DNA of 50,025 nucleotides, taken from a virus. Positions 8,096 to 46,343 of the stretch are shown one piece after another. The position numbers were made by a program, and so were the translations under genes. The stretch is from the IMG/VR virus record IMGVR_UViG_3300017739_000018, positions 1 through 50,025 of that record; one strand, given 5' to 3'. Within the stretch, counting starts at the first letter, position 1, and each line of letters opens with the position of its first letter. Below the pieces are notes generated by a model, which made no database searches, was not told the DNA's origin, and worked only from the letters and a program-made list of their open reading frames with translations.

Positions 8096-9040
8096 TTAGT
8101 CAGTTTTAACAACGCCAACAGCCAACGCTTCTGGACGTAAAACTTTACGGCCGAATACGTGCAGACCACGAACGATGTCGCTAAATGTTTCAGTTGAACG
8201 AACAACTTCTGTTTTAGCGATGTGCGATGCAGTCGCTGTAGAAGACATGTGACCCGCGAGAACTACGAAGTCGTTTGTAGTGTCCTGTGAAGTGATAGTC
8301 ACAACGTCAGTACCAGAGTTGTTTAGTGCAGTTGTTTTGTAGCAGTTCATGCCAGCGATGTTGCCCTGCATAACGAGACCGTTACGAAGAGGTGAAGTCG
8401 CATCACCAGTGACCTGCACTTCAGCAAATTTAGCACCTGCTTTAAACAAGTTTTCCCAGAAAATAGGAGGTGCTACAAACCAACGATTTTCCTCAGGAAT
8501 TGAGTTATCATCCATTGCACGTGCAATTGCCAACATTAAGTTAACAGCGGCGTCTTCGTTGCCGGAACCAGTGATGTCAATAGGAGCTGACGCAGATCCA
8601 AAAGTAGCCGCGCCACCTGTAAGACCAGCACCATCAGCCATCGCTTGAAGGACGTTAGCATCGTACTTACGTTTCAAAGAGAACGCACCAGAAGATGTAG
8701 CCAACGCCTCAAAATTGACGTGTGACTGACGTTCTTCGATGTCGTCAATCTTGAACGCGAAAGCATTCGCTTGGTCAACAACCATTGTAATCTGATCGTC
8801 AGCGAGGTCTTGTGGATTGACCACAGCACCGCGTGAGTAAGAAGATACAGTGATTGTAGGTTCTTTGATAATGCGAACAGTATCGCCGAAGTTTTCAATT
8901 TCACCAGCGTAATCAGTGTTGGTGATATCTTCGACTACCGACGCACGACGGAAAAACTTCAGGACTTTCTGAGAAAAAATCTCAGGAGTAAAGTTCCCTG
9001 AAGGCAGGTTGTTATAACCTGATGCGCTATTAAAAGCCAT
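8096..9040 (-). CDS. Major capsid protein
   Basis: A 314-residue coat protein, following the scaffold gene as in most tailed phages. It starts MAFNSASGYNNLPSGNFTPE and continues with EIFSQKVLKFFRRASVVEDI, GDTVRIIKEPTITVSSYSRG and FKIDDIEERQSHVNFEALAT, typical of the N-arm and E-loop region of HK97-fold coat proteins in marine podoviruses. The C-terminal half includes RWFVAPPIFWENLFKAGAKF and ends GLHVFGRKVLRPEALAVGVV. A strong AAGGAAGG ribosome-binding site precedes the ATG. HK97 fold is expected for the family, not shown by the sequence alone. Confidence 0.88.
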   Translation of the reverse strand: MAFNSASGYNNLPSGNFTPEIFSQKVLKFFRRASVVEDITNTDYAGEIENFGDTVRIIKEPTITVSSYSRGAVVNPQDLADDQITMVVDQANAFAFKIDDIEERQSHVNFEALATSSGAFSLKRKYDANVLQAMADGAGLTGGAATFGSASAPIDITGSGNEDAAVNLMLAIARAMDDNSIPEENRWFVAPPIFWENLFKAGAKFAEVQVTGDATSPLRNGLVMQGNIAGMNCYKTTALNNSGTDVVTITSQDTTNDFVVLAGHMSSTATASHIAKTEVVRSTETFSDIVRGLHVFGRKVLRPEALAVGVVKTD

Positions 9041-12183: not shown

Positions 12184-12411
12184 TTATTTCTCCGCGTCTA
12201 CCACTGCTTGGTGGTTAGATTTGAGGTTCAGGAGGGTTTCCAGTAAAACCATCTTCCCCTGCAACTGGAACATTTCCCGTTCCGATTGTGCCGTCACCAA
12301 CCCCCGAAGCGTCACTTGGTGGAGGTCCATCAGGTAATTGGTCAGGGCTTCCCATGCCTGCGGGTGGTGCACTAGCGGGCCCACCTTCTGGGCCTGTTCC
12401 TTGTTGAGCAT
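12184..12411 (-). CDS. Small gene overlapping the portal 3' end
   Basis: A 75-residue protein, MLNKEQAQKVGPLVHHPQAW onward, in a different frame from the portal C-terminus, which it overlaps by 197 bases. It has an excellent ribosome-binding site (AAGGA, 7 bases before ATG 12411) and reads as a compact helical protein (ALTNYLMDLHQVTLRGLVTA, MFQLQGKMVLLETLLNLKSN). The pattern resembles small head proteins encoded after portals in podoviruses. The portal frame here is Pro/Gly/Ser-rich and looks disordered, so the second frame appears to be the constrained one. Confidence 0.7.
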   Translation of the reverse strand: MLNKEQAQKVGPLVHHPQAWEALTNYLMDLHQVTLRGLVTAQSEREMFQLQGKMVLLETLLNLKSNHQAVVDAEK

Positions 12412-14311
12412 TTTGAAGTCCTTGTAGTACTTTTGCGTAGAGTTGTGCTTCATTTACATCATTTACCAGCTCTTCCGGATCAATGTCCTGAGAGATTGCC
12501 AATTCTTTGACAAGATTGGGTAATTTAATAAACGGTGCGAGCATTGGATTCGCAACCGTCTGGAGAAGCGTTGTAAGCCTCTGTGAGCGAACTTCTTTTT
12601 GCATGACGGCCGAGGTACCCCGAGGCTTAATACTTAGATCTCCGACGATATCAGGGGCCTTCTCGTTGTACTGCATATTCCATTGAAAGTATGCTTCACC
12701 AAGCGGTTTAAGAAGATAGTCATCAATGTTTTTGATAACAGTTTTTACGGACATCGTTCCGGCACTCATTAACATAGACAACCCAGAAGACGTTCTACCT
12801 GTACCTGTAACACCCGTTTGTCCGTGCAAAACGCTCGGGATGCCAGTTTCTTCATCTGAAAGCTGACGAGCAATTTGATACATTTGAATGTTTTCAGGTG
12901 CAGTATTAGGAAATTTAAGCCCGTTGATTGCTGTGCCTGTTACCCCCGACTGGCGTCTGAACACTTTACCGGGAAAGATTTCAAAGTTTTGTCCGGGAAC
13001 AAGAGATGCTTCGTCCACATCAAAAACAAGGTTGCCCGCTAATGCTAAGTTGTCAATCGCCATACGAACATGACCGTTCATAAGCATTTGGGCATCTTCC
13101 ATGTTTTCCGCAACGCCAACGCCCCAAATCTGGTAGGGGTTAACTTCATACGGAAAGCAGTGGTATGGAATTCGAGCGGGAGTAAAAGGATTGAGCACAC
13201 AACGTAAAACTTCAGTGCCACAGACCCACGCGTTAATTTGTACTTGATCTAACTCTGAAACAGTCTCAGGTAAATCCATCCCGACTTCACGAGCAAGTTT
13301 AGCATCTAAAACACCCCAATACTCAAACAATTCAAAACGGTTTTCTTGATAGTATGGCTCCGTATCGTCTTCTCTGATCGTATCTTCATAATACTTGTCT
13401 TCGTAGTTGGGTCCTTTTAAAAGTGTGTTTTCTATTGCCGTCGCGTTAAAGAATGGACGATTCATCAAATTACGAATTTGTTGGCGATTCATCCTATGAC
13501 GTTGAATTACATATTCACAATCTTCAAGACTTGTAGCTGAAGGGTCCGGATGGAAGTCCCAAGCTGAAACATGTTCAAGACGAGGAACTAAGTCCTCAGT
13601 AGGGTTGTACACACGTTGTCCGTCTTCGCCACGTTCCCAACTGTGAATGCGCTTGTAATGATTAAACGGTCCTTTTACAATCCCCGTACCGAGAAGGCAC
13701 GACTCAAAGATAGCGTTACGTAATACATTGACCGCGTTTGTGTCCAAAAGCTGGTCGTGAATATGCTTTTCTAACGCACGTGCCGCCTCAGCCGCTGGAG
13801 AAAACTGGGGCTCTCCTACTAGCGACGGGCCTGCTGAGAGCTGATCCGCCATTTTTTGGTACTTGCCGAAATTAACCTCAGTAGCACCGGGTTCTAAATC
13901 TAGCCCATCACCAGCAAAACCAAAAGGACTTTGTAATTCATCCGCAGGTGTTTTAAGGTGTGCAAACTCCACGATACCGTCAGGCACAGGAGTGTGTTCA
14001 ACTACGATTGGAAACTTTTTGTTCACAAACAAAATGTCTACAATTTGACCGTATGCCGCTAAAACTTTAGTCTTCGTGATTTTAATAAAGACTTTAGATC
14101 TTTCAGAGTCACGATACTGTGTAGACGAGTCGTAGATTCCACGGAAGTTTTTGTACGCTTGAAGCCACCGCTGTTCAAATGTACGACGTCCATTTTCCGA
14201 ATCTTGAAAACGATTATGGATATAGCCTGCTAGCCCCGGCATTTGTTCGTCAACATCGAGAACCTCGACCTGACCGTCATCCGGAGCTTGAAGGAAGCCC
14301 TCTTCAGCCAT
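12215..14311 (-). CDS. Portal protein
   Basis: A 698-residue protein between the small gene at 14326 and the 707-residue virion gene. It begins with an acidic region then RRTFEQRWLQAYKNFRGIYD and RSKVFIKITKTKVLAAYGQI, typical of large podovirus portals, and includes VEHVSAWDFHPDP-like text (LEHVSAWDFHPDPSATSLED), YHCFPYEVNPYQIWGVGVAE and the allosteric segment ETGIPSVLHGQTGVTGTGRT. It would form the dodecameric DNA gate at one vertex. The C-terminal 80 residues are Pro/Gly-rich and are overlapped by another gene. Confidence 0.88.
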   Translation of the reverse strand: MAEEGFLQAPDDGQVEVLDVDEQMPGLAGYIHNRFQDSENGRRTFEQRWLQAYKNFRGIYDSSTQYRDSERSKVFIKITKTKVLAAYGQIVDILFVNKKFPIVVEHTPVPDGIVEFAHLKTPADELQSPFGFAGDGLDLEPGATEVNFGKYQKMADQLSAGPSLVGEPQFSPAAEAARALEKHIHDQLLDTNAVNVLRNAIFESCLLGTGIVKGPFNHYKRIHSWERGEDGQRVYNPTEDLVPRLEHVSAWDFHPDPSATSLEDCEYVIQRHRMNRQQIRNLMNRPFFNATAIENTLLKGPNYEDKYYEDTIREDDTEPYYQENRFELFEYWGVLDAKLAREVGMDLPETVSELDQVQINAWVCGTEVLRCVLNPFTPARIPYHCFPYEVNPYQIWGVGVAENMEDAQMLMNGHVRMAIDNLALAGNLVFDVDEASLVPGQNFEIFPGKVFRRQSGVTGTAINGLKFPNTAPENIQMYQIARQLSDEETGIPSVLHGQTGVTGTGRTSSGLSMLMSAGTMSVKTVIKNIDDYLLKPLGEAYFQWNMQYNEKAPDIVGDLSIKPRGTSAVMQKEVRSQRLTTLLQTVANPMLAPFIKLPNLVKELAISQDIDPEELVNDVNEAQLYAKVLQGLQNAQQGTGPEGGPASAPPAGMGSPDQLPDGPPPSDASGVGDGTIGTGNVPVAGEDGFTGNPPEPQI

Positions 14312-14325
14312 AGTAATCTACCTTG

Positions 14326-14523
14326 TTAGCCGTATAAGGAAGTATCGTCTGCCATTGTGAACAGAGAAGCATCTACCGTTGTTTTAGTTTGAACTTTAGG
14401 TGCGTCTTCTGTTAGAACGTCAGTTTTTGCTTGCGTATCAAACTCCAGACCTTCACGATAGAGATTAGTTTCTCCAACATTAGTATCTACAGTTTGTTTA
14501 TCTGAGTTCATAATATCTTTCAT
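14326..14523 (-). CDS. Small acidic protein before portal
   Basis: A 65-residue acidic protein starting MKDIMNSDKQTVDTNVGETN and ending ASLFTMADDTSLYG. The ATG at 14523 is preceded by AGGAG with a 6-base spacer. An upstream in-frame start would extend into the recombinase-like gene and is unlikely. There are no Cys and no recognisable domain. Position between the recombinase-like protein and portal suggests a minor virion or assembly role, unproven. Confidence 0.6.
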   Translation of the reverse strand: MKDIMNSDKQTVDTNVGETNLYREGLEFDTQAKTDVLTEDAPKVQTKTTVDASLFTMADDTSLYG

Positions 14524-14533
14524 TTTATTCTCC

Positions 14534-16270
14534 TCATTGGATTCCAAACATTCGGGACATCTGTCCCTCAATGTCGTCACGTAAGCCAGCTTCTTCGGCT
14601 TGTTCTTCAATTTCTTTTGCCACAGGTTCTAGCGCGGCTCCCATTACTTCTTTACCGACTTCGACACCTGCTTGCATTATTCCGACAGGACTTTCTTCGA
14701 GTATAAATTGTCCGGCCTGTTCTAATACAGAAGGTACGACGGGTTTTCCTTCTTCAATGTTTTTTTGAGCTTCAGCGACACGGGGCATAAGTGAAGCACC
14801 TATCAACGCAGTGCCTCCAACTGTAAGAGCTCCTTGAGCCATCTTGCCGCCATCAATATTGCGGAAGAAGTCCATGAGTGAACTCATGCCTTTTTTCATG
14901 TCGTCGTCTACGGTGACTTGTTTAGGAGCAGGAGCGGTTTCCGCTTGGATGCGAGCGCGTTCTTCTTTTTCAAACTGTTTGAGTTCTAATTCACGCGTGA
15001 TTTGCTGTCGATCAATGGCATCCTGCCCTTCAAGAAACTTTTGACCCTCTTCACTCTGTAAAAACTCAATTCGCTCTTTTTGCTTTTTAAGAGCATCACT
15101 TAAATAGTTTTCAGTTTTATTCTTAGCTTCTGCAACCTGTGCTTTTGCTAACTCTCTGCGCTCTTCTTCCGTAAGAGTCGAAGTAAAGTTTGAAGCGTCC
15201 TCTCCAAAACCCGCGAACTTATCACGGACACCGATTAAAAGGCTATCGGCAATCTTGCCCAGTCCTTCGACAGGCTTGAGTCCTGCGTAGTTTCTTGAAA
15301 GAATGGAAGAGTCGGTGTGACCCATCATTGCTTCGGTAACGTCCGTCGGATAACCGAGCTCGTCTCGAACGATTACTGACATAAACGAACGAGTAGCACT
15401 TGGGCTTGTTATAACGCCTTTAGAAGGGTCTTTTGCGTCAAACAGCGGTAAAAAATCTTCAAACCCTGCCAATAACCGTGGAGAAATAGTTGCACGGTAC
15501 GCTTTATCGTACGTACTTTGAGTCACGTCAAATAGCTTGTCACTAACGGAAGACTCATAGTTACGGATTACTAAATCCGCCATTGGTGATCCAATGGGAT
15601 ACTTTACTGCGGGGCGAGTTTTTTTACCTTTAGTTACGCTTTTAACAGTGACAAAATCGTCTGTGATAGTGACGTCGGACTTTTTAATTGCGCTGTTACC
15701 AATTAATTGTTCGGGGCGTTGAAAAGTCGCTTTGTGGTACAGAGCTAAATCTGCAACTGCGTCTCCATATTGAGCCCGTATTTCAGGGACAGCTTCCGAA
15801 TATATCTTTTCAATATCGTCGTGCGGGATAGGCTTTTGCATGGGGCGTTCGCCCGCCAGATCAGTGCGCTGTGTACCTCCTGATAGACTTCCCGACCCTT
15901 TACCCCCTGTAATGAGAGGATAAACCCTAATTTCACCTACTCCACCGGGACCGGGCACTGTTAGATTAAGTAAACCGGATTCCTCAAGAATTGGTCGAAT
16001 GTTTGTTTCTAAAGCTTGGAAATTACTGTACTTGTTGGCGGTTTTGTTTACATCCTTACCTAAACGAGACCAATTGTCTTGCTTCCGCATCTCAGCGAGC
16101 GTAATATCCGCAGGTAAACCTGTTTTGTCCCACGTATTACGGAGTGCACGTAGCTGTTTAAAGTGGTTTTCAGTCGTAGTAGGCTTTGCCATCGCGTAGT
16201 CGATAGCTTCACGGACTGTAAGCGTTTGGTCTGCGGCCTTTTCTACAAATTCTTCGTACGATAGTGGCAT
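14534..16270 (-). CDS. Tyrosine-recombinase-like protein with long tail
   Basis: A 578-residue protein inside the head operon, starting one base from the terL stop. Residues about 15-105 resemble a core-binding domain. Residues about 175-335 match a tyrosine recombinase catalytic domain: Arg I at R185 (FQRPEQLIGNSAIKKSDV), a beta-hairpin Lys near 214-217 (TKGKKTRP), Arg II at R294 (SATRSF), the GH box at H318 (MMGHTDSS) and the nucleophile Y328 (SRNYAGL). The usual His of HxxR is Ser291. Residues 360-578 are coiled-coil, then a hydrophobic stretch (MAQGALTVGGTALIGASLMP), unlike standard integrases. Either integration or a virion-associated recombination role is possible. Confidence 0.75.
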   Translation of the reverse strand: MPLSYEEFVEKAADQTLTVREAIDYAMAKPTTTENHFKQLRALRNTWDKTGLPADITLAEMRKQDNWSRLGKDVNKTANKYSNFQALETNIRPILEESGLLNLTVPGPGGVGEIRVYPLITGGKGSGSLSGGTQRTDLAGERPMQKPIPHDDIEKIYSEAVPEIRAQYGDAVADLALYHKATFQRPEQLIGNSAIKKSDVTITDDFVTVKSVTKGKKTRPAVKYPIGSPMADLVIRNYESSVSDKLFDVTQSTYDKAYRATISPRLLAGFEDFLPLFDAKDPSKGVITSPSATRSFMSVIVRDELGYPTDVTEAMMGHTDSSILSRNYAGLKPVEGLGKIADSLLIGVRDKFAGFGEDASNFTSTLTEEERRELAKAQVAEAKNKTENYLSDALKKQKERIEFLQSEEGQKFLEGQDAIDRQQITRELELKQFEKEERARIQAETAPAPKQVTVDDDMKKGMSSLMDFFRNIDGGKMAQGALTVGGTALIGASLMPRVAEAQKNIEEGKPVVPSVLEQAGQFILEESPVGIMQAGVEVGKEVMGAALEPVAKEIEEQAEEAGLRDDIEGQMSRMFGIQ

Positions 16271-17974
16271 TTAGTATCCGAATGTTGAATCTTGGGGTTT
16301 AAATGTGCTATTCTTAATGTCGTTAAGTGTTTTGTGGATAGAGACGTACCCAGATGTACGGGTCATTAACATGTAGCGGAGCGCGTCGTACGCATGGTCT
16401 TCCGCTTTTGTGTCGACGTCTTCAGAATTTGTTTTTGACAGGGGGATACCCGCTAACTGTTTTATTATGTTTGTGCACGTGTTAAAAAATTTAACTGTAG
16501 GCTCTCCGGTAAATTCATTGTCACCTAATCTACGGTGTATTTCCATTTTACCGGATATTCTGTTACTATCAGATGGAGTCCAACGGCAACCGCCACGGAT
16601 CATTGTCTCTGCAATAGACGGGCCGTATCCTGTACGATTCCAACAGGATTTATCGAGCACAACGTAATGAGGATTAGGGTCCCACTCCTCTAATTCTATT
16701 ATTTTAGCGGCTAGTTGCTCTGCTGTAAAGTGTTTTACGTAAAGTTCTCGATAGACCCATATGTTGTTGTCCCAATCGATTGCACCCCAGAGTACGCACG
16801 AAGGGCTTGCATAACCGTAGTCAGCGGCACGGATTCTTGGCCAGTTGGTTGGTAGTTCGAAAGGATCAACGCAGTGCTTAATCTTGTTAAACTCTGGGAA
16901 AGCACAACCTTCTGCAACATCCCAGTCTCCGTCGAGTAGACGCTTTCGCTCCACTTCTGGTAAGGAGAGGAGCATTGCTTCGTATTGGCCGTCCCGCATA
17001 AGGTACGGGTTGTCTGTAAGTCTGGCTGGGACGAATTTTCTCCAGTACAGCGGCTGGCCTGCCTTCTCATGTCCCTCAGGGTATACATATGGCTTTCCTG
17101 ACTCGATATCGGCGGGAACGAATGGCTTACCGGGGTTTCCTTGGTCGATGTACATCTTTTTGACCCACCAGCCTCCGACACCGCCGGGGTTGGCTGTACA
17201 CCGCATTGAGAGATTTTTCGAGAGCTCTGAGTCGGTTGAACGGAGACGTGACCGTAGGTAGTCCCATACGTAGGAGGTGGGATACTGGGTAATTTCATCG
17301 ATTGCTATCCAATTGAAGGCTTGTCCCTGATATCGGGTAACGTCTTTGTCTTTGTCAAGATAACTAAACCAGATAGTGGCCCCCGACGGGAAATGCCATG
17401 TGGATTTAGACTCTCTAAAGGAGGCACCGGGAAACGCCTTGGGATAAAGTTGTTTAGATTTGGAGATGAGTTCAGTCAATTCATCCAGAGTGCGACGGAG
17501 TAATAAACCACGATGACTAGGATTATGGCAATAACGGAGAGGATCTGCCAAGAGAGCGAAACTTTTTCCTCCACCAGCCGCACCGCCGTATAATACATCT
17601 TGTTCAGGTGCTGACAGAAAGTCTTCTTGTGGTCCATCATTCGGTTTGAATACAACTTCAGATTCTCCCACAAGCTTTTTAACTGCGTCTGGTAAGGCAT
17701 TTAAGTCTCCTACATCAATTACTCGTGAATTTTTACCTTGTAGTGCCGTTTCTACTTTTGATGCGGCTTTTTCTCGCACGGATGCACGATATGCTTGTTT
17801 CTTAGCCGCTTCTCTTTTCTTTTCAGCTTCTTTTTTTGATCTTCTTATCGAAGCTTGTGTCGCTCTACGCGCTTTTTCCGCAGTAGAGAGGTGATAACGG
17901 GCTTTGGGCGCGTTCGGGTCTTTTTTTGGACGACCACGGGCACGTTTTGGAGCTTCTGCGACCTCATCCGTCAT
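16271..17974 (-). CDS. terL: Terminase large subunit
   Basis: A 567-residue packaging motor ATPase-nuclease. Walker A is GGAAGGGKS (130-138), Walker B is WIAIDE (222-227), and ATPase-coupling text RCTANPGG follows. The nuclease half contains RAADYGYASPSCVLWG (first acidic residue), VVLDKSCW and EDHAYDALRYMLM with the C-terminal acidic residues. Residues 1-75 are an unusual basic extension with an AT-hook-like RGRPKK and an Arg/Lys/Ala helix. It overlaps terS by 11 bases. The extension may aid DNA or pac-site contact, which is inference. Confidence 0.93.
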   Translation of the reverse strand: MTDEVAEAPKRARGRPKKDPNAPKARYHLSTAEKARRATQASIRRSKKEAEKKREAAKKQAYRASVREKAASKVETALQGKNSRVIDVGDLNALPDAVKKLVGESEVVFKPNDGPQEDFLSAPEQDVLYGGAAGGGKSFALLADPLRYCHNPSHRGLLLRRTLDELTELISKSKQLYPKAFPGASFRESKSTWHFPSGATIWFSYLDKDKDVTRYQGQAFNWIAIDEITQYPTSYVWDYLRSRLRSTDSELSKNLSMRCTANPGGVGGWWVKKMYIDQGNPGKPFVPADIESGKPYVYPEGHEKAGQPLYWRKFVPARLTDNPYLMRDGQYEAMLLSLPEVERKRLLDGDWDVAEGCAFPEFNKIKHCVDPFELPTNWPRIRAADYGYASPSCVLWGAIDWDNNIWVYRELYVKHFTAEQLAAKIIELEEWDPNPHYVVLDKSCWNRTGYGPSIAETMIRGGCRWTPSDSNRISGKMEIHRRLGDNEFTGEPTVKFFNTCTNIIKQLAGIPLSKTNSEDVDTKAEDHAYDALRYMLMTRTSGYVSIHKTLNDIKNSTFKPQDSTFGY

Positions 17975-18371
17975 GCTCTACAACCATTTCTTTTTTCGGG
18001 GGGAGTAATACCACCCCATGTATAGCTTGGATGTTGACATTGTGAGTCTCTTGTTTCCCCAAGCCGACTCTATTGAGCAAACTCTCGGCCGCTTGGAGAC
18101 GTATGTTATCTCCACGCTCGATTTCTGGTGCATCAATGGTCTGGACAAGCTTATTAGCGGCTTTGAGAGCACCACCTGCAAGAATATTCCGTGCTCCTTC
18201 GATAATTTCGTCGGCAAGAGACTCTTTAAGGTGTCCGATGGAACCCTGCGAGTAACCTGACACTTCACAGGCACGTGAGAAGTTACCTCCGTTCTCGAAG
18301 AGTGCGGTAAGAAAAGCTTGTTGTTTGTCGGATAACTCACGTTTTTTCCGTTGTTGAGGAAGGAGATTCAT
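17964..18371 (-). CDS. terS: Terminase small subunit
   Basis: A 135-residue protein beginning MNLLPQQRKKRELSDKQQAF. A helix-turn-helix-like region (FLTALFENGGNFSRACEVSG, then YSQGSIGHLK) is followed by an oligomerisation helix (IIEGARNILAGGALKAANKL) and AAESLLNRVGLGKQ, the usual layout of small terminases that recognise the packaging site. It overlaps terL by 11 bases. ATG 18371 is chosen; an in-frame GTG at 18380 is possible. Neither has a clear ribosome-binding site, so this gene may be weakly or leaderlessly translated. Confidence 0.85.
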   Translation of the reverse strand: MNLLPQQRKKRELSDKQQAFLTALFENGGNFSRACEVSGYSQGSIGHLKESLADEIIEGARNILAGGALKAANKLVQTIDAPEIERGDNIRLQAAESLLNRVGLGKQETHNVNIQAIHGVVLLPPKKEMVVEHDG

Positions 18372-18541
18372 GAAAATCACATATATATGTTAAAAAAAGC
18401 GTACGAAGGGGCTTGTGGTCGCGGAACTTTGTTCACATGGACTATAAAAGTTGATTTCCCTTGCCATTTTGGCCCCGGTACAGAGTTATTATGGGCAACA
18501 ACCGTTTAATTTGTCAACAAAAAAAATATTTTATGTAGCTA

Positions 18542-19846: not shown

Positions 19847-20851
19847 TCATGCGGCCAACTCCAGTGATTGCCATTGTGGCGACTCGAGAACGGTGCGAAC
19901 TTTTGCTTCCCGTTGAAGTCGTACTCGGTGAGGATTCGACGAACCACGACTGGTCGATAGTTCGGTGATTGTGCCGTCATCGTTCTCGCGCTCCCATGTT
20001 TCATCGACGTGAGTCGCCCAATGTGTAAGGGCATTGTAAGCACCCCACAATGTCGGGCCCAACTCCCGCTGTTCCTCTTGGAATCGATGGTTGAGATAAT
20101 CGAGCAAACGGCCGTTAACTCGTGTGTTTTTGTCGGTCGAAAGTTGCGAGGCCTCGCCTCCTTTCTTGCACACTGTATTTTCGAGAACCTCAACCCACTG
20201 GGACCGATCTAATTCGATGGTTCTCCACTTCTGCATCTGGTCGCGGTGAGCATGAAACATACCAAGGCCTAGCGTAGATTTAGCAATCATCGCAGAGACC
20301 GACAGATTAGAGGTGTGTTTTCGTTTCTGGTGGTAAGCCTTCTGACCCCCAAACACCATCGTATTACGGCAGTAATCGCGGTAAGCACCGGAGAACACCT
20401 GAAACGCCCACGACATGTCGACGCTGTTAATAATGTCGGCGCGGGCCGTGATTCCTTCCCCCCTGCCGTCAATGTCGAAAGTGAGATCGTTGAAATAAAC
20501 TGCTCGAGTGGCGCGGCGGCCTTCGTCGAAAATCCGGTCGACTACGGTGAAATTATCGTGGGGTAACGATGGGTTCTCGAGTATCGATTTCGCTTGCTCG
20601 AGGAACGCCAGTGAATGATCCACAAGCTTATAGGATTTAGAGACCGGCGGTGACGCCAGTAGCTTTTGCGTGTTGCTGTTTCGGAGTGCGTAGTATCCCT
20701 CGACAAGATTCCGGTCGCGGTCGTAAATCGCCTCCTTTTGGACAGATCCAAGTTCACTAAAAAAGTCGACGTCAAGCGGGTTGCTGTGCGTGAACTCCAA
20801 ACCGTCTTGGATACGCTGAGCGGTGCGCTCTGGGTTAACTGCAATATTCAT
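19847..20851 (-). CDS. DUF932-like phage protein
   Basis: A 334-residue protein beginning MNIAVNPERTAQRIQDGLEF. The text YYALRNSNTQKLLAS, GRGEGITARADIINSVDMSW, AFQVFSGAYRDYCRNTMVFG and AYHQKRKHTSNLSVSAMIAK fits the DUF932/phage-plasmid-like family (surrounding a conserved Cys-Arg-Asn segment), whose role in phage and plasmid biology is not settled. The start is set at ATG 20851 by a strong TAAGGAGG site; the open frame continues upstream only across the tRNA gene and is not coding there. The gene is transcribed with tRNA-Cys from the promoter at 20984. Confidence 0.75.
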   Translation of the reverse strand: MNIAVNPERTAQRIQDGLEFTHSNPLDVDFFSELGSVQKEAIYDRDRNLVEGYYALRNSNTQKLLASPPVSKSYKLVDHSLAFLEQAKSILENPSLPHDNFTVVDRIFDEGRRATRAVYFNDLTFDIDGRGEGITARADIINSVDMSWAFQVFSGAYRDYCRNTMVFGGQKAYHQKRKHTSNLSVSAMIAKSTLGLGMFHAHRDQMQKWRTIELDRSQWVEVLENTVCKKGGEASQLSTDKNTRVNGRLLDYLNHRFQEEQRELGPTLWGAYNALTHWATHVDETWERENDDGTITELSTSRGSSNPHRVRLQREAKVRTVLESPQWQSLELAA

Positions 20852-20873
20852 GGCTAAAAGCCTCCTTAGTAAT

Positions 20874-20947
20874 TGGACACAGCGAGGGGAATCGAACCCC
20901 TGTAAACAGATTTGCAGTCTGTCGCCTAACCAGTCGGCCACGCTGTG
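20874..20947 (-). tRNA. tRNA-Cys (GCA)
   Basis: Full cloverleaf on the minus strand: acceptor CACAGCG/CGCTGTG, D stem GCC/GGC with loop GACTGGTTA, anticodon stem ACAGA/TCTGT with loop CTGCAAA (anticodon GCA), T stem AGGGG/CCCCT with TTCGATT, discriminator T, and encoded CCA (20874-20876). U73 is an identity element of tRNA-Cys, so it should be chargeable. It is the only tRNA seen, 22 bases before the DUF932 gene. It may supplement host tRNA or mark a past or present attachment site. Confidence 0.95.
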
Positions 20948-20983
20948 TCGGTATCCGGTCGGCCAATCCGATCCGGTAAAGTC

Positions 20984-20992
20984 ATTATAGCA
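20984..20992 (-). promoter_or_regulatory. Extended -10 promoter for tRNA-Cys operon
   Basis: On the minus strand TGCTATAAT is a perfect -10 with extended TGn. The -35 is poor (TTGTTA with a long 19-base gap), as is usual for extended -10 promoters. The start near 20977 gives a 30-base leader to the tRNA. Dyad copies 1 and 2 lie about 150-230 bases upstream. Confidence 0.65.
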
Positions 20993-21058
20993 CGGAACAA
21001 AAGAACCATAACAAGAAACCAAGCAAAAAAGTTTCTGTCAAAGAAGTGAATCCAACGA

Positions 21059-38348: not shown

Positions 38349-38993
38349 TTATCTCCCCCGGCCCCCACGAGCCATACCTTTGGTTTTCTTACCACCGTAC
38401 ATAGCTTTAGCACGGCCTTTAGTAGCTTTACCGCCACCCATCATCTTACCCTTACCGTCTGCGGCAAAAGCTGGCACCATCTTTCCGTTTTTCTTGACCA
38501 TAGGCATCTTACCGCCTTTCGCCATCATTGCACGACCTTTGGTAGTTTTACCCCCACCCATCATCTTAGTGCGGCCTTTAGTAGTTTTACCCCCGCCCAT
38601 CATTTTAGTGCGGCCTTTAGTAGTTTTACCCTTCATTGCCATTTGTTTAGCTCCTGTTGTTCCACCATACATTTTACCCGCAGGCTCTTTATCTCCGGAT
38701 GGCATTGCACCCTCATCTCCTTTGTCACGTAAAACTTTACGTGCAAGCATCGCATCCGTACCTGTTCCTTCCGCAATCCTGCGGAGGTCTGTTATTGGCA
38801 TACGGCCAAGCTCTTCAATGCGTTGTTGCTGTGCTAATGCTTTATCCTTAGCTGTTGCACGTCCGGTAGCAAGACGGGACTGCGTGTCAGCGTTTGCCGC
38901 TGTTGCACCACCTGTTTGCATTTTTCTCTTGGGCCTCATCGACGCTCCACCGTACATCATCGGCTTTCGGGGTGAGGTTGCATATTTTTTCAC
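38349..38993 (-). CDS. Basic repeat protein (MMGGGKTTKGR)
   Basis: A 214-residue Lys/Arg/Gly/Met-rich protein. Residues about 118-212 carry tandem GRTKMMGGGKTTK units, five or more, some degraded (GKMMGGGKATKGRAKAMYGG). A middle helical part reads ELGRMPITDLRRIAEGTGTD. Similar low-complexity basic proteins occur in marine phage virion modules. It may bind packaged DNA. The ATG overlaps the stop of the giant gene (ATGA). Confidence 0.65.
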   Translation of the reverse strand: MKKYATSPRKPMMYGGASMRPKRKMQTGGATAANADTQSRLATGRATAKDKALAQQQRIEELGRMPITDLRRIAEGTGTDAMLARKVLRDKGDEGAMPSGDKEPAGKMYGGTTGAKQMAMKGKTTKGRTKMMGGGKTTKGRTKMMGGGKTTKGRAMMAKGGKMPMVKKNGKMVPAFAADGKGKMMGGGKATKGRAKAMYGGKKTKGMARGGRGR

Positions 38994-41900
38994 TGTTGTG
39001 CTCCTTGATTTTGGAATGGTGTTGTTCTGAGACCGAGTGCTCTGAAATCTTTTTCTACCTGAGTCAGTACTTCTTCATCTTCTGGAGGTGCTTCATCTAC
39101 CCCTTGTAACTTCATACGTGCCCGTGCTCGCTCTCTAGGATTTTCAATTTGTTCGATCTCCGCAAGGCGTTCATTACGCTCCGCGATTGCCGCAACGTCC
39201 GCTTGAACACCCGTTGGTGCCGCTTGTGTGCGTATTTCTGGAGCTGGTGTCTCGGGCAGACCAGTAAATCCGTAGTAATACGAAGCAAATCTATCTGTTG
39301 CCGCATTCTCGTTACGCACTTCTGCCATCACAACCTCAGACATTAAAATACGCACCCACTTCGGTTCTACCCTGTATTCTGGAACCTTGTTAGTCTCTAC
39401 AATCTCGAGAACTTTACGGGCAACTTCTCGGTCTTTGAGCATTGCCCGTAGCAGAGCACCGGAGTGCCTTCGGCTCGCACGAATAATAGATTCAGTTGCT
39501 ACCCACTGAACAGACACAACGCCACGATTGATGTTGTAAATACGCGAAAGCACCGAATCAAGTGACATAGATGACACGTGGGCGTCGATACCTGCGTTTG
39601 CTGGGGGCGGGTCAATTTTACGAACAACTTCAGCAATCAGTTCCAACGATTCAACTACGTCTTCTCCCAAATAAGTTTGAAGGCGACGACGGGTGCCACT
39701 GTCAGGGTCACCTAGCATCTTGATGATTTCATCAGAAGATACTGCATACTGCCTTTTATTTACCGTAACTCCGTCAGCACCGACACTTTCTTTGTTGCCT
39801 GTGTACTTTTGAGTTTTAACAATAATGTGATCCTGTATAGCCTTTGCAATTGTTTGGTCGACGTATTCTGACTCATATCCTTCGCTAACGAGATTTTGAC
39901 GCAACCGCTCGAACTCTTTTGAATTATCGTCCATAATAAAACGATTGTATATAGTCTCGTCCATTTGAGCTTTGTTGAACTGTCGAACTTCAGAGCCCGG
40001 ACGTTGTCTAAACAAAATTCCTTGGAGGTCTTGTACAAATTGAATCTCTTGTTTTGCAAGCTCTTCAATACCGACAGCTTCACCACGCGGGCCCCGCTTA
40101 GTCATTTCTCCAATGACTTCATCTTCAATGGTGTTAACGTAAGAATTTGCTTCATCAAATACTTCTTTTAAATCTTCTCGGTTCTTTTCAAGAGCGTTGA
40201 GGTTGATTGAGCTGAAGACTTCTTCTTCGTCGAGTAACTTAACTGGTACTCCATCTTCCATCAAAGGAACGACGTCACCTGCTTCGTTACGAGTATACAC
40301 AGGGATATTGAAAAGCGTGTCAAAGGTGTTCTTGTCGTACTCTACTTTCAAGTTAGGCTGGAAAATAATACGTCCCTTAGCATCCCTCTTGAGTACTTGA
40401 TTAAAGTCTTTAACTAAAACTCCTTGTAAGTGACGAGTAAGAATAGCTTTTAACTGCTTTTGTGTTTCTACAGCTATCTCGTCGTTTGCACCGCCCCCGC
40501 TTTTACCTAGCAAGAAATACTGGCCTGTCTTTTTATCGTACACTCCACCAATCTTACCGAGGGTACCTGCAACAGCGTTATACAGGTTGTCTGTTTTTAG
40601 GTCCATACCCGAAAGAGGAACGCCCGCTTGGTTAGACATTTTTGCGACACGTGCTAGCAATTGGTTAAGCCATTGAGTAGGCATGTTAGCTTCGTCTACA
40701 CGGTCAAACGTCTTAAGAAAATCTTGGAGGAGTTCGTCTTGCTCTACTCCTTCACGGATAGACATGGGACCTGTAGCCGCACCTTTAGTTTTGCCTGTTA
40801 AGCTAGCGTCCCACCTTTTGATTGTCTTGTCGACAGTGTACCGTTCAATGACTTCCTGCATGTAGAAATCTTGGATTGCGCGAAATTGTCCGTACACCTC
40901 ATTTGCGACAGGACGAACAGTTGTACTATCTATCCAGCCTTCCATCCAAGCACTTCGGTTTGGATTGCCATCTGCGTCTGTCTGTTTACTGACAAGTTGC
41001 CACTGATCGTACAACTGGCGGTACCCTTTATTCTTTTGCTCATCAGTGCTTTTTCTCATCGATTTGCCTAAGAATTTGTTCACTCGACGCCACTCAGCAG
41101 TGTTGACGAGAAGTGGCATGTTGTTTACCATCAGCTCTCCATCTACGCCATCAATAGCGAGTTTCTCAGGCTCTTCTTTCGCAAGTCTTTTTAGTTCCAT
41201 CCATTGTTGAATAGGAGGTAGGTCGTCTAGTTCATTCTCGGTGAGAATGCGGTTTAACTGTCCTTGTGTGCGAGTGTTCATCATTTCAAGACCACGTTTT
41301 GCCGCGCCACTGAACATGTTGGCAAGACCCTTACGGTCACTTGGAATAATTTTTGCACCGCCAAGTTTTTCTGTAGACTGAAGAACAAAGTCGGGTTTAA
41401 GAATGTCGTCAAAGTTCTCAACGTTTGCACTCATAAAGTAATCGAACTGTTGAGAGATATTAGCGTACACACCCGGATTTTGAGAGTCGAAATCTACGTA
41501 ACGCTTTGCTACTTCGCTGTCGATAACGTTTCTGTTGTAAGCGACAAGATTAGCAAAGTGACCCCCGGCGCGTCCCATTGACGCTTCTTCTGGGCGAAGG
41601 CCACGTGTGATCTGATTGAGCATTTGGAACTGCTCTTCTCGAAGCTCATCCAAACGGGCTAAACGCTGTTGCACACCTTTTTGTGGTTCAAGAACAAGAC
41701 CTACTGCGTCATCAGTCATGTCGTTCATAATGGCTTCGATACTTGTTTCATACTGCTCTTGGAATAGCCGAGTCGTAGCGGCCTGTACCTCGTCACCATC
41801 AATGTAATCTATTTCCATTCGCGCTTTGATTGCTTCCCTATTTGTTTTAACAAGAGAAGCTAAGTGTTCGCGGTCGCCCTTGAGACGCTGTGAGTTAGCA

Positions 41901-44122
41901 AGTACAAACTCGCGCATTTGATCTGCTAAGATTGACAGAGGATCATCGTCTGATAAATTTGCTTGAAGCTTAACGTCAAGTAACTTTTGTGTTGAAATTG
42001 CAAGCTGAGAAATAAGATCGTGCTGTGCTCCAATAACTTCGCGGTTTTGTATGATAGGACCTGTAATGTCGTCGAGACCAGTAGCGGCGATCTTATCGTC
42101 AAGCTGACGGGACACATCAATAAGCTCCGCCATGTTCGACATAATTGCAAGGTTGCTGACCATCAAGTCTTCATTGATATCAATACCTGTACGTTCGCTA
42201 AGTTCGACAAGACGATTCTTGTACTCAGCGTGTTTTTGTAAACTGCGGATAAACTCGTTTTGAAATTCAGACGGTTGCTCCGTTACTTTACGCAAAACTT
42301 TGGATGCTTCTCTAGAAAGTTTTAAGTCAGCACGTCCAGCTTTAATTGACTCTAAGTCACCGAAGTTCTTTATAACGTTTGATATTTCCGAAATTACAGT
42401 GCCGGTAGCTCGAATACCTGCCCCTGCCATGTCTGCGGTAGTTCCGAATTTACCGAGAGGAATTACTACGGACAATGCTCCTCCAAGTTCGATAGGGAAC
42501 TGTTCAGACTGTTTGTATCCAAAAAATTGTTGTGTGAGCTGTGTAAATGCAACAGTAGCACCTACAGTAAGTCCTGCTTCAGCGTACAAGTCACGAAAAT
42601 ACTTAGGAACTATGTTCTTATGAAGGAATGTGTTTTGTCTCTGGCGTAAACCCACAAGCACTTGTTGCTGACGCTTGACGACATCTGTCTTGCCAGTAGC
42701 GCGGGCCGCACGAAGTGTTTTGAGAGTAGCACTGATTTGCCCCCGAATGCCATCGTATTCTTGTTGAAGAAACTCTTTGCGAGCTTCACCGGGGCGACGG
42801 ACCATCATACCAAACGCGATGTCTAAGTCCTTTGCTAGCTTACGCTGTGCCTTTTCACCTACAGCCGTTTCAGTGTACTTACTAATAACTGTCGCTGGGC
42901 TCATACCTTGAGAACGTGCCTTGGCAAATGCTTCCACAAGGTCGTCGGTGCCGAAAGTATCAAGCATGTGCTTCTTTAACGCAGGAATGCGGCGAGCGGC
43001 AGTGACAGCTTTCGTTGTGCCCCACACTGCGTACAAAGCAACTTCAGGGCCGCCATAAGCTTGAATTGCTTGGTTCAGGCCACGAGGTGCAATAATCTCT
43101 TCAATAACGTCTGGGTTGTAAATGTCACCCGCCATGTTTTCGATGGTCGTTTCAACACCTATATGTTTTGCAATATCGACCATGTCGGTAAGGCTCTGAA
43201 ACTGGCGTTGAACATTCTCTTGTGCTGTTTGCCCTTCCGGTCCCTTTTTAAAATCCATGCCCCCCGCTTCAAGAGCATTCATAACTACTTCGGTAGTCAA
43301 GAAGCTTGCTCCCATAACGGCATACTGCGGAATACTTAGAGCAAATACCTTAAGGTCTTGCAGTTGCTTTGTGACTGCTTCTTCGCTGTACCGTCCCGTT
43401 GCTACTCCCCGAAGGGCAAGAGTACGTGCAACTTGGTTGGTCATCCCCATTTCGATTAACTGCTTATCTAAATCAGCAAGGTCACCCCGCCCTGCTTCTC
43501 CAGTTATCGTAGTAATTGCGCGGTAAGCAACGTCCTGTGCCGTTTCTACAATGTTGTCGGCAGGACGAGGAGTTGTGTAACGTTCGTACTCTCGTGTCGT
43601 AGTCAACGGAAAAAGCTCTGCTATTCCCCGCTCGTCCTTTACTTCCATACCGCTTTCATCAAGTAACGGCAGGTAGCCGCCTTGGTTACGAAGAAGGACA
43701 CGGTACTTTTGCTCTAGAGTAGCATTTTCAGGAAACGCTCGCTCTTCATAATCAAGAGTAAAGAACGTTTCAGCTTGGCCTAACAAACGCTCCTGCTGTG
43801 CACTGAGCTCATCTAAGGCTCCCACACCAGTTTGTATTGGATCTCCTACAGGCACTTGCTCTTCGCCTTCTACACTGCGAGAAACAAGAGGCTCACGTGT
43901 CATACCCAAGACTTCTGGTCTATACTGGAAGATTCCACGCATTTGAGACTCAGAAGCTTTAGAGTAAGGATCAACAGCAAGGCCCTCAATCTGAGCTTCT
44001 TTTTGCGGTGGAGGAGTAGGTATTGTTTCCTGTACCGCTTGTACTTGAGGAACGGGTTCGACAGCCTGTGTTTGTAGCTCGTCTTCGCGTTCTTCTTCAG
44101 TATTAAGGGAAACTTCTGCCAT
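38990..44122 (-). CDS. Giant internal virion protein, 1710 residues
   Basis: Largest gene of the window. Mostly long helices with charged linkers (SEISNVIKNFGDLESIKAGR, EFVLANSQRLKGDREHLASL), a few hydrophobic parts (VALYAVWGTTKAVTAARRIP, AEAGLTVGATVAFTQLTQQF), and a Pro/Glu-rich start and end. Size, position after other virion genes and helix content fit the inner core or ejection proteins of podoviruses, such as T7 gp16, which help DNA cross the envelope. I see no clear lytic transglycosylase motif. The role is inferred. Confidence 0.7.
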   Translation of the reverse strand: MAEVSLNTEEEREDELQTQAVEPVPQVQAVQETIPTPPPQKEAQIEGLAVDPYSKASESQMRGIFQYRPEVLGMTREPLVSRSVEGEEQVPVGDPIQTGVGALDELSAQQERLLGQAETFFTLDYEERAFPENATLEQKYRVLLRNQGGYLPLLDESGMEVKDERGIAELFPLTTTREYERYTTPRPADNIVETAQDVAYRAITTITGEAGRGDLADLDKQLIEMGMTNQVARTLALRGVATGRYSEEAVTKQLQDLKVFALSIPQYAVMGASFLTTEVVMNALEAGGMDFKKGPEGQTAQENVQRQFQSLTDMVDIAKHIGVETTIENMAGDIYNPDVIEEIIAPRGLNQAIQAYGGPEVALYAVWGTTKAVTAARRIPALKKHMLDTFGTDDLVEAFAKARSQGMSPATVISKYTETAVGEKAQRKLAKDLDIAFGMMVRRPGEARKEFLQQEYDGIRGQISATLKTLRAARATGKTDVVKRQQQVLVGLRQRQNTFLHKNIVPKYFRDLYAEAGLTVGATVAFTQLTQQFFGYKQSEQFPIELGGALSVVIPLGKFGTTADMAGAGIRATGTVISEISNVIKNFGDLESIKAGRADLKLSREASKVLRKVTEQPSEFQNEFIRSLQKHAEYKNRLVELSERTGIDINEDLMVSNLAIMSNMAELIDVSRQLDDKIAATGLDDITGPIIQNREVIGAQHDLISQLAISTQKLLDVKLQANLSDDDPLSILADQMREFVLANSQRLKGDREHLASLVKTNREAIKARMEIDYIDGDEVQAATTRLFQEQYETSIEAIMNDMTDDAVGLVLEPQKGVQQRLARLDELREEQFQMLNQITRGLRPEEASMGRAGGHFANLVAYNRNVIDSEVAKRYVDFDSQNPGVYANISQQFDYFMSANVENFDDILKPDFVLQSTEKLGGAKIIPSDRKGLANMFSGAAKRGLEMMNTRTQGQLNRILTENELDDLPPIQQWMELKRLAKEEPEKLAIDGVDGELMVNNMPLLVNTAEWRRVNKFLGKSMRKSTDEQKNKGYRQLYDQWQLVSKQTDADGNPNRSAWMEGWIDSTTVRPVANEVYGQFRAIQDFYMQEVIERYTVDKTIKRWDASLTGKTKGAATGPMSIREGVEQDELLQDFLKTFDRVDEANMPTQWLNQLLARVAKMSNQAGVPLSGMDLKTDNLYNAVAGTLGKIGGVYDKKTGQYFLLGKSGGGANDEIAVETQKQLKAILTRHLQGVLVKDFNQVLKRDAKGRIIFQPNLKVEYDKNTFDTLFNIPVYTRNEAGDVVPLMEDGVPVKLLDEEEVFSSINLNALEKNREDLKEVFDEANSYVNTIEDEVIGEMTKRGPRGEAVGIEELAKQEIQFVQDLQGILFRQRPGSEVRQFNKAQMDETIYNRFIMDDNSKEFERLRQNLVSEGYESEYVDQTIAKAIQDHIIVKTQKYTGNKESVGADGVTVNKRQYAVSSDEIIKMLGDPDSGTRRRLQTYLGEDVVESLELIAEVVRKIDPPPANAGIDAHVSSMSLDSVLSRIYNINRGVVSVQWVATESIIRASRRHSGALLRAMLKDREVARKVLEIVETNKVPEYRVEPKWVRILMSEVVMAEVRNENAATDRFASYYYGFTGLPETPAPEIRTQAAPTGVQADVAAIAERNERLAEIEQIENPRERARARMKLQGVDEAPPEDEEVLTQVEKDFRALGLRTTPFQNQGAQQ

Positions 44123-44126
44123 TTAA

Positions 44127-46343
44127 TTATCCTTTACGTATGAGACGGTATGTTCTTCCATCACGATTAGGGATTCTGCGGAATTCATCTGGATTCGATT
44201 CAGGTGTAATTTTTTTGTCATCAAGCGCGTCCTTTAAATTCCTAGGAGCACCTTTTAGTAAAGCATCGATTGTTCGAGAACGTGGGTTACTTTGATCGTA
44301 GATGTAAACTGCTTTAAAATCTTCGTCGTCAATAGCTTTAGCGTACTGGCCGTTGATAAGCGCGGTTCTTCCCATCTCTTCGCTAATGTATTTTAGGTTT
44401 TCTTCTACACCTACATCAGCAGATAAGACACCCCGTAGCCCAAGCACTAAGCGTTGGTTTTGAACGTCAGTATCAGAGATTGCACGGCCGCCTTCACCCT
44501 GTTGCACGGCCGCCGCCATTGCGAAAGCAAGTTGTTCACCGAGAAGGTCGAATACTTTTTGACCTTTAATCTCACTTTCCATATCTATTTTATCTAGACT
44601 TCCCGCTTCTTGCAACAACTTTGCGTTCTCAGCAAAGCGAGCGGCAACATCAGGTTCCATGCTGTAAGTAGCGGCAAGTTCTGTAAGCGCGTCGACAATA
44701 GTCATTGCACCACCAACAGTACGCCGAACAGATGCTATCAGACCCACTCCACCGAGCCCCTCACTTCTTAAAACAAGCATACGGTCCGCAATAACTTGTG
44801 CACGTCTTGCCGCTTGCTCCATCTTAGCCGCTTGTTTACCGTCTATCTGGTATGTATTTTTGCGGTTGTTAAACTTCGGTGCAATGTCTCCTTGAGCAGA
44901 GATGGCAACAGAACTCGGCCGTCCCGCCGGATTATCTTTTATAAGGTTACGGATGTATAGAATTTCGTCTTCAGCAGTATCAAAGTTGTTTTCTGTAAGT
45001 TTTTCCCTAACAAGTTCCTTTGTTCTTTTCGTTATTTGCAGAACTCCGTTAGACATGAATACGCCATTTTCGAGTTCTGTGCGCGTTTCTGCAATATCTT
45101 TTAAAGCAAGCAACGGGTTTTTGTGGTCTTTGACCAGCCCTAAAATAATGTGGTTAGGAACACCGTTGTAACTTGATATTTCTTGGACTTGCTTAAAAAC
45201 GTCTTTTTTCATGACAAAACGTTCTTGATCTGAATCGTACTCCGTCGACCACTTCCAATCCTCTGGGTTTGGACGAATGATACGGTTGTTTACTTGGTCA
45301 TACGTGTAATCGATCTCGCTAGGATCACCCATTAGTACTTTCATTGTGTCGATACTGTAGCCGAGCACAGGGGCAAGTACTGTTTGTGAGAACCAGTCTT
45401 GGTTTTGTTTTCCTTTAACGTGAGTTAGCAAACCATAAAAATCGATAGGGTTTTGTATTACCATGTCCTTGCCCTCAGTTTGAGCAAGTTTAGTGGCCTC
45501 TCGCAAAGCGTTTCCGCCGTTTACTTTTAAAGCGTCAACAAGAGTGTTGTAGTTTCCGTAATCACCCAACTTGTACTCCTGAATAATTTGAGGAATCAAG
45601 TCAGGATTATCTTCGAGAGTCTGCATAACTAGAGTGCTATTTGCCATAGCACGTTTCTTGGCGTCGCCTTTAGACTCGTTTACAGCAGGGATGCGGATAA
45701 GCGTTTCCTTAGTGCTACCGTCTGCTAGCGTGACCGGCATAGTAAAAAAACCGCTATTATAATCTGGATCAGCTCCAAGAGTTCCCTTTGCAATACCAGA
45801 GAGCCCCTTCGAAACGCTGTTGTTTGCTTTAATTAAGTTATCAAGTCCCGGAATAGTTCCGAGAATCGGGGGAAGAATCGTGGGAATACCCGCTTGAACA
45901 CGGCGTTGAAGCTCAATAGGCATCTCAGTAGCATCCGGAAGACGCTTTTTTCCTACGTAGTCAGGGCCTACAAACTCGCCTTTTTTATCTCCATCCTCAG
46001 CAATGTACCCAAACGTTTGAATAATTGCTTGTTCTTTTGCTTCAATCTTTGCGGTCTGCTCAAGTTCTATTCTTTCTCCTAACAAACGACGTTGAGCTTC
46101 GTTGTTTTGTTCTTGCAATGCAGTTTGAAACATCTGACGATTTTGTTCCATTTGCTCGTTGAAGAATTGCTGACGTCCCGCCGCAAACCTCGCATTCTCT
46201 TCTTGAATACCGATGATTTCTTTTTGACGCTCTTGAGCGCGTTTTTCTGCGGCAATCTGTGCTTCTTGTGCCGCCTCGGCTTCTTTACTGCGGACGTACT
46301 GTTGTGATGCTCCCCGCAAAAGGCCGAGTGTTAAAAGTCCCAT
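44127..46343 (-). CDS. Internal virion/ejection protein, 738 residues
   Basis: MGLLTLGLLRGASQQYVRSK begins with a short hydrophobic part, followed by a long Gln/Glu-rich coiled-coil (about 20-110; EENARFAAGRQQFFNEQMEQ). The remainder is mixed (NHIILGLVKDHKNPLLALKD, AFAMAAAVQQGEGGRAISDT). The layout resembles inner core proteins of podoviruses. Start and upstream stop overlap (TAATG), and the giant gene follows after 4 bases, so these two are made together. Confidence 0.7.
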   Translation of the reverse strand: MGLLTLGLLRGASQQYVRSKEAEAAQEAQIAAEKRAQERQKEIIGIQEENARFAAGRQQFFNEQMEQNRQMFQTALQEQNNEAQRRLLGERIELEQTAKIEAKEQAIIQTFGYIAEDGDKKGEFVGPDYVGKKRLPDATEMPIELQRRVQAGIPTILPPILGTIPGLDNLIKANNSVSKGLSGIAKGTLGADPDYNSGFFTMPVTLADGSTKETLIRIPAVNESKGDAKKRAMANSTLVMQTLEDNPDLIPQIIQEYKLGDYGNYNTLVDALKVNGGNALREATKLAQTEGKDMVIQNPIDFYGLLTHVKGKQNQDWFSQTVLAPVLGYSIDTMKVLMGDPSEIDYTYDQVNNRIIRPNPEDWKWSTEYDSDQERFVMKKDVFKQVQEISSYNGVPNHIILGLVKDHKNPLLALKDIAETRTELENGVFMSNGVLQITKRTKELVREKLTENNFDTAEDEILYIRNLIKDNPAGRPSSVAISAQGDIAPKFNNRKNTYQIDGKQAAKMEQAARRAQVIADRMLVLRSEGLGGVGLIASVRRTVGGAMTIVDALTELAATYSMEPDVAARFAENAKLLQEAGSLDKIDMESEIKGQKVFDLLGEQLAFAMAAAVQQGEGGRAISDTDVQNQRLVLGLRGVLSADVGVEENLKYISEEMGRTALINGQYAKAIDDEDFKAVYIYDQSNPRSRTIDALLKGAPRNLKDALDDKKITPESNPDEFRRIPNRDGRTYRLIRKG

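Follow-up and report, generated by a model that had tools for sequence, protein, structure and literature searches.

The stretch of DNA analysed here, referred to below as the window, is the 50,025-base virus record IMGVR_UViG_3300017739_000018 (positions 1 to 50,025). Directly behind terL, the gene of the packaging motor, it carries a gene whose product was described in a first-pass annotation as a tyrosine recombinase with a long C-terminal tail. Is this protein truly a tyrosine recombinase? And, if it is, what would such an enzyme be doing among the packaging genes of a phage?

By the sequences of its terL and portal genes, the window phage is HMO-2011-like. The closest isolates for both are HMO-2011-type phages (e.g. 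HTVC115P, HTVC033P, CRP-207 and HMO-2011), with 57.5% identity at best for terL and 51% for portal. From 1 to 22 kb the genes are mostly on the minus strand, including terS, terL, the recombinase gene, a small ORF, portal and the capsid protein gene, and are followed by a plus-strand primase/helicase/polymerase block (Table 1). As the annotation had it, the recombinase gene is embedded in the packaging and head gene cluster between terL and portal, and is close to portal, which starts at 14311 where the recombinase ORF ends at 14534. It was also right in placing the gene next to terL, but the distance of one base does not hold; the two codons abut in the junction TAAATG (terL stop TAA, 16273-16271; recombinase ATG, 16270-16268). 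Elsewhere in the window, two minus-strand proteins of 1710 and 738 amino acids (38990-44122 and 44127-46343) have no significant PHROG or Pfam family, and a complete tRNA-Cys (GCA; 20874-20947, minus strand) overlaps a DUF932-domain ORF (19847-21022) whose start is probably downstream of the tRNA. In two loci of close relatives (L001:927-1277 and L003:1924-2274) terS and terL are separated by an ORF of 116 amino acids that resembles ParB by eye; the window has none.

Table 1. Features of the recombinase gene and its surroundings in the window.
Feature	Position	Strand	Basis or remark
Tyrosine recombinase next to terL, with tail at C-terminus, 578 aa	14534..16270	-	ATG start
N-terminal, mainly helical (core-binding-like) domain, residues 1-110	15941..16270	-	pLDDT block means 77-96
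Catalytic domain, residues 141-345	15236..15850	-	PHROG_1 match 146-429, family profile matches, model
Catalytic Arg I, R185	15716..15718	-	72/76 family members
Beta-hairpin Lys, K217	15620..15622	-	K58/R10 of 76; 70/76 in second alignment
Ser291 at HxxR His position	15398..15400	-	family S/Y/A/K/T
Catalytic Arg II, R294	15389..15391	-	72/76
GH-box His, H318	15317..15319	-	family H35/R31 of 76
Nucleophile Tyr, Y328	15287..15289	-	71/76
Two long helices, coiled-coil-like, residues 368-445	14936..15169	-	model
Gly/Ala-rich hydrophobic segment, residues 481-499	14774..14830	-	
C-terminal peptide QMSRMFGIQ	14537..14563	-	corresponds to the [GSN]F[ILMVA]-type C-terminus of the family
terL	16271..17974	-	stop codon abuts recombinase ATG
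terS	17964..18380	-	weak profile match and synteny
Small ORF, 65 aa from ATG, GAGGAG upstream	14326..14523	-	conserved between recombinase slot and portal
portal	12215..14311	-	profile matches
Major capsid protein	8096..9040	-	strand and gene cluster shared with recombinase
Promoter-like site TTGACA-18-CATAAT, upstream of terS	18488..18517	-	consensus match only

Comparison of the window with locus L001 shows purifying selection on the recombinase ORF (dN 0.21, with dS saturated at about 2.5), and it is therefore not a chance ORF. Searched alone, the window protein has a weak match to PHROG_1 'integrase' (E 8.6e-4), and it found no Pfam family, no PDB chain (phmmer), no match in 50,697 phage records and essentially nothing among plasmids. 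Because the PHROG_1 match is weak and Pfam gave nothing, a homologous family was needed to establish its identity as a recombinase.

Direct searches returned four IMG/VR contigs (67-74% identity) with the order terS-terL-recombinase-small ORF-portal. The wider family was found by scanning IMG/VR with TerL alignments, which gave about 140 loci, mostly on short metagenomic contigs; once identical stretches were collapsed, 87 loci spanned the terL-portal interval. All 66 unique terL-portal loci whose TerL is at least 70% identical to that of the window carry a protein of more than 500 amino acids in this slot, which starts nearly always within about 0-6 nt of the terL stop and is followed by an ORF of about 70 amino acids and then portal. 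Loci at 60-70% TerL identity comprise five recombinase-type slots, seven with other proteins and four empty, and those below 60% comprise four recombinase-type slots and one without a long open frame, 'recombinase-type' in the 87-locus count meaning what was left once ten proteins known not to be recombinases had been set aside. A profile started from the N-terminal domain of the window protein alone recruited 75 of 97 non-redundant slot proteins, including the canonical L088; only these 97 proteins were searched, so the E-values are lenient, and the conservation of catalytic residues is independent support. No integrase match was recognised for four slot proteins (L118, L134, L148 and L149), whose membership of the family is uncertain. 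No such gene was present in the slot of the five cultured isolates examined or of related phage contigs binned with bacterial genomes, nor was one found when cellular genomes were scanned with the recombinase alignment. Isolate searches with three other family members returned no slot protein, two of them giving nothing; for the canonical L094 the only matches were ordinary integrases, aligned to its N-terminal part.

Other proteins also occupy the slot. In L084, L092, L093, L095, L089 and L103 it holds a family of 338-531 amino acids ('FPxGI...LYDxGFLxDADP') without a recombinase domain, which resembles the middle and end of L090/L094. In Rhizobium phage RHph_N3_19 (L010:3935-6484) it holds a protein of 849 amino acids that has an FAD-dependent oxidoreductase domain.

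Structure prediction and a comparison of relatives had been suggested as checks on the annotation, and both came out in its favour. A first AlphaFold2 model, built from five sequences, was unusable alone (pLDDT 48; best Foldseek match TopIB, E 0.077). With 28 homologues, pLDDT was mostly 85-96 over residues 1-120 and 150-310, and the best Foldseek match was lambda Int (E 1.3e-4, probability 1.00, alignment of about 340 columns), followed by variola TopIB (probability 1.00), XerH, Cre and SSV1 Int; matches in BFVD were mostly phage integrases. According to this model, the first 345 or so residues of the window protein are a tyrosine-recombinase fold. The Tyr segment (321-333) is poorly modelled (pLDDT below 50), so that the nucleophile Tyr rests on conservation. 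Against the PDB, the family profile matched a XerC-like chain (E 7e-11) and also Tn1549 Int, XerD, XerH and lambda Int, and without two canonical members it matched Int 3nkh (1.8e-9) and Tn1549 Int (1e-7). The A8 profile, whose PDB matches were dominated by coiled-coil noise, was set aside. PHROG_1 matches 43 of 76 family members and PF00589 22 of 76.

The 76 aligned members have a mean column identity of 11%, and only M1, R185, F247, R294, Y328 and G486 are columns of at least 90%. Among the relatives, R185 and R294 are each kept in 72 members and Y328 in 71 (93-95% invariant), and the K217 position is Lys or Arg in 68 (K58, R10; 70 of 76 in a second alignment). The annotated R185, beta-hairpin Lys (K217), R294, H318 and Y328 are all found in the window ORF, as are Ser291 in place of the HxxR His and a His-Tyr spacing of 10. 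These last two features were correctly observed but are not oddities in context: among relatives the spacing varies from about 8 to 18, and the HxxR His is almost never present (S23, Y11, A10, K9 and T9 of 76). The window, with Ser291, has neither His nor Lys at this position; we do not hold this to exclude membership, because the active CRP-3 integrase also lacks the His and the position is thus variable. In alignment A5 the GH-box His column holds Arg in about 40% of members, an unusual R-K-x-R-R-Y active site, and on that account we no longer took His318 as a strict hallmark. Two members, L088 and L090, have canonical XerC/D-like recombinases (HxFRHSYxTH...LGH...Y) followed by about 700 further residues. 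Of the hallmarks of the tyrosine recombinase/TopIB superfamily, the window protein has the fold, Arg I and Arg II with the Tyr, the beta-hairpin Lys and the GH-box His. The identification of the slot protein as a tyrosine recombinase is supported by fold, profile and catalytic residues. With lambda Int, XerC/D/H and Tn1549 Int it shares the fold, the N-terminal helical and catalytic domains and the R-K-R-H-Y residues. It differs from them in that the HxxR His is unconserved in its family, the GH-box His is often Arg, a tail of about 230 residues is present and the gene is in a packaging cluster.

The tail had been described as more than 200 extra C-terminal residues with a coiled coil and a hydrophobic segment. 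This agrees with what we find: residues from about 346 to 578 are extra, with two long helices in the model (368-445) and a Gly/Ala-rich stretch (about 481-499). With few exceptions, complete members contain a single hydrophobic segment rich in Gly and Ala, at about 0.75-0.9 of their length. The pattern [GSN]F[ILMVA] is present within the last 15 residues of 49 of 86 members, against 1.9 expected in shuffles, a descriptive count given that the pattern was chosen after inspection and the members are related; among other long ORFs of the same loci, 1 of 221 has such a C-terminus. That of the window protein, MFGIQ, does not match the pattern. Sharing of tails with other proteins of the loci was considered and rejected, the matches being only to slot proteins or their remnants. 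This architecture suggests that the tail is probably a virion-docking module.

Do enzyme, tail and neighbouring genes travel together? TerL identity is correlated with portal identity (rho 0.59) but not with recombinase-domain identity (rho -0.02), and of the 303 pairs with TerL at least 85% identical, 267 have recombinase domains less than 30% identical. Correlations at low identity are open to blurring by alignment noise, but noise does not account for those pairs of N-terminal parts that lack any blast hit and yet adjoin nearly identical tails. In 30 pairs, tails at least 50% identical (e.g. L054/L067, 82%, and L031/L046, 75%) follow N-terminal parts that are less than 40% identical or have no detectable match, and 19 pairs show the reverse, with similar N-terminal parts and differing tails. 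In a sister lineage, the slot protein is without a recombinase and matches the post-recombinase part of L090/L094, and L099 and L100 retain only 35 residues of such a tail. Judged from these comparisons, recombinase domains and tails shuffle independently, and the slot recombinase is a cassette that occurs between terL and portal throughout the family and is exchanged freely, a point that goes beyond the earlier annotation.

The explanation that we consider best, held tentatively and at somewhat less than an even chance, is that the recombinase is active, is made late, carries a separable tail that probably serves for docking to the virion, and is delivered with the genome. A catalytically competent enzyme would be made together with the packaging proteins, its late production being argued from the position directly behind terL. 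The tail would dock a few copies to the head interior or portal during assembly, and these would exit along with the DNA. Once in the next cell, the enzyme would act at specific sites, either of the incoming genome, which it would circularise or integrate, or of other DNA there, with its specificity renewed by N-terminal domain swaps between phages. A head- or portal-docking delivery module best fits a tail that persists without the enzyme, its hydrophobic segment and C-terminal peptide, and a gene in the head cluster; a function in specificity, whether for the incoming genome, a host site or competitor DNA, fits free exchange better than a fixed packaging step does. The position in the late cluster, the C-terminal peptide and a tail that can be separated from the enzyme would all accord with packaging in the virion and action on incoming DNA. 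The fold, active-site conservation, position, domain/tail shuffling and tail-only lineages are the sequence-based part of this explanation; that the protein is expressed late, docks, is packaged and ejected, and has a DNA target of this kind is inferred. We are confident that fold, active site, position and swapping stand without the delivery hypothesis. A more general reading, only slightly less probable, is that the terL-portal slot is a head-cargo system of tailed phages in which a docking tail with a C-terminal peptide carries exchangeable N-terminal domains into the next cell, the cargo being in most cases a tyrosine recombinase whose specificity keeps changing. MuF-type phage toxins and polyvalent proteins similarly have an exchangeable effector domain on a head protein near portal. 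The likeness is in that idea, delivery here being a proposal; the slot protein differs in that no MuF domain was found in it and its effector is an N-terminal recombinase. Poxvirus topoisomerase IB, which is like the slot protein in fold (variola TopIB, Foldseek probability 1.00), is packaged in virions; it is monomeric and has neither such a tail nor such a gene setting.

Could this instead be an ordinary lysogeny integrase that was moved to the late cluster, with an incidental or regulatory tail and with swapping that reflects the exchange of att specificity among temperate phages? We think this unlikely. It is the sole tyrosine recombinase found in these genomes, PF00589 having no further match in the window, nor across 19 related records (six of 50-57 kb; possibly incomplete), and free exchange suits att specificity. 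Subgroups I and III of the HMO-2011-type phages have an early integrase rather than this gene (PMC9038755), and CRP-3 has been shown to integrate at tRNA-Met (PMC6918029). However, the gene is neither early nor separate but abuts terL within the terS-terL-portal cluster, nearly all members have the long tail with its hydrophobic segment, and the sister lineage retains a tail without the recombinase. Nor was there a tRNA fragment usable as an att site in the window, and when one genome from each of 84,980 species was scanned with TerL, no prophage of the clade was found. A search for an inverted-repeat target site near terS gave one weak pair, which was rejected as a target. The CRP-3 integrase (gp02, 357 aa) matched the family neither by HMM nor by phmmer, and a relocated CRP-3-type int was rejected as the origin of the slot gene since the family profile does not recognise it. 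Both are tyrosine recombinases of the same phage group without the HxxR His, but gp02 is encoded upstream of the replication genes and has no long tail, whereas the slot protein is tailed and encoded in the packaging cluster.

The location between motor and portal genes, and a fold that also matches TopIB, would equally suit a packaging or maturation factor that resolves concatemers or branched DNA, or relieves motor torsion, in the producing cell. There is a precedent in baculovirus VLF-1, a tyrosine-recombinase nucleocapsid protein that is involved in packaging and whose conserved Tyr is needed for infectivity (PMC3649998, PMC11654684). VLF-1 is tied to nucleocapsid formation, and the slot gene, known from sequence, lies beside packaging genes; but the viruses are unrelated, and VLF-1 is a conserved core gene where the slot recombinase is a swapped cassette. 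We judge such a factor rather improbable, as the recombinase is not coinherited with terL or portal, unlike a VLF-1-like core gene, and is absent in some relatives. Sister lineages with empty or recombinase-less slots imply that it is not an obligatory part of packaging, and a general packaging enzyme would not need such diversity of N-terminal domains. Extreme exchange of recombinase domains might also be expected of a weapon, in which a delivered or intracellular recombinase acts against rival phages, satellites or host elements from an accessory-gene slot. The other slot proteins in L084/L092/L093/L095/L097/L101 and the oxidoreductase of RHph_N3_19 are in keeping with this, but no immunity partner was identified and the small downstream ORF is also present without the recombinase, and we regard it as quite improbable. 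Least credible is a catalytically dead form of the earlier suggestion that the recombinase was recruited as a structural protein. The absent HxxR His, a GH-box His that is often Arg, and the packaging-cluster position could be read in this way, yet, in an alignment of so low a mean identity, the two Arg, the Tyr and for the most part the Lys belong to the small set of positions that hardly vary, and the proven CRP-3 integrase likewise lacks the HxxR His (PMC6918029). What endures of the first-pass annotation is the tyrosine recombinase, its position in the head cluster and its fused tail, while an inert structural role is disfavoured.

According to a structural study of 2024, a role of tyrosine recombinases in packaging or in forming virions had been indicated only for baculo-like viruses (PMC11654684). 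Here a known enzyme class, the tyrosine recombinase, is in a new setting. Throughout a clade of uncultured phages that is related to an abundant marine group, such an enzyme is kept directly behind the gene of the packaging motor, with an active site that is constrained while the rest diverges and with domain exchange that is uncorrelated with the adjacent motor gene. If the recombinase is in the particle, this would explain how phages without an early integrase could recombine their DNA on entry, and would offer a source of many recombinases of differing specificity. If so, it would to our knowledge be without precedent for a tailed-phage particle to deliver a tyrosine recombinase.
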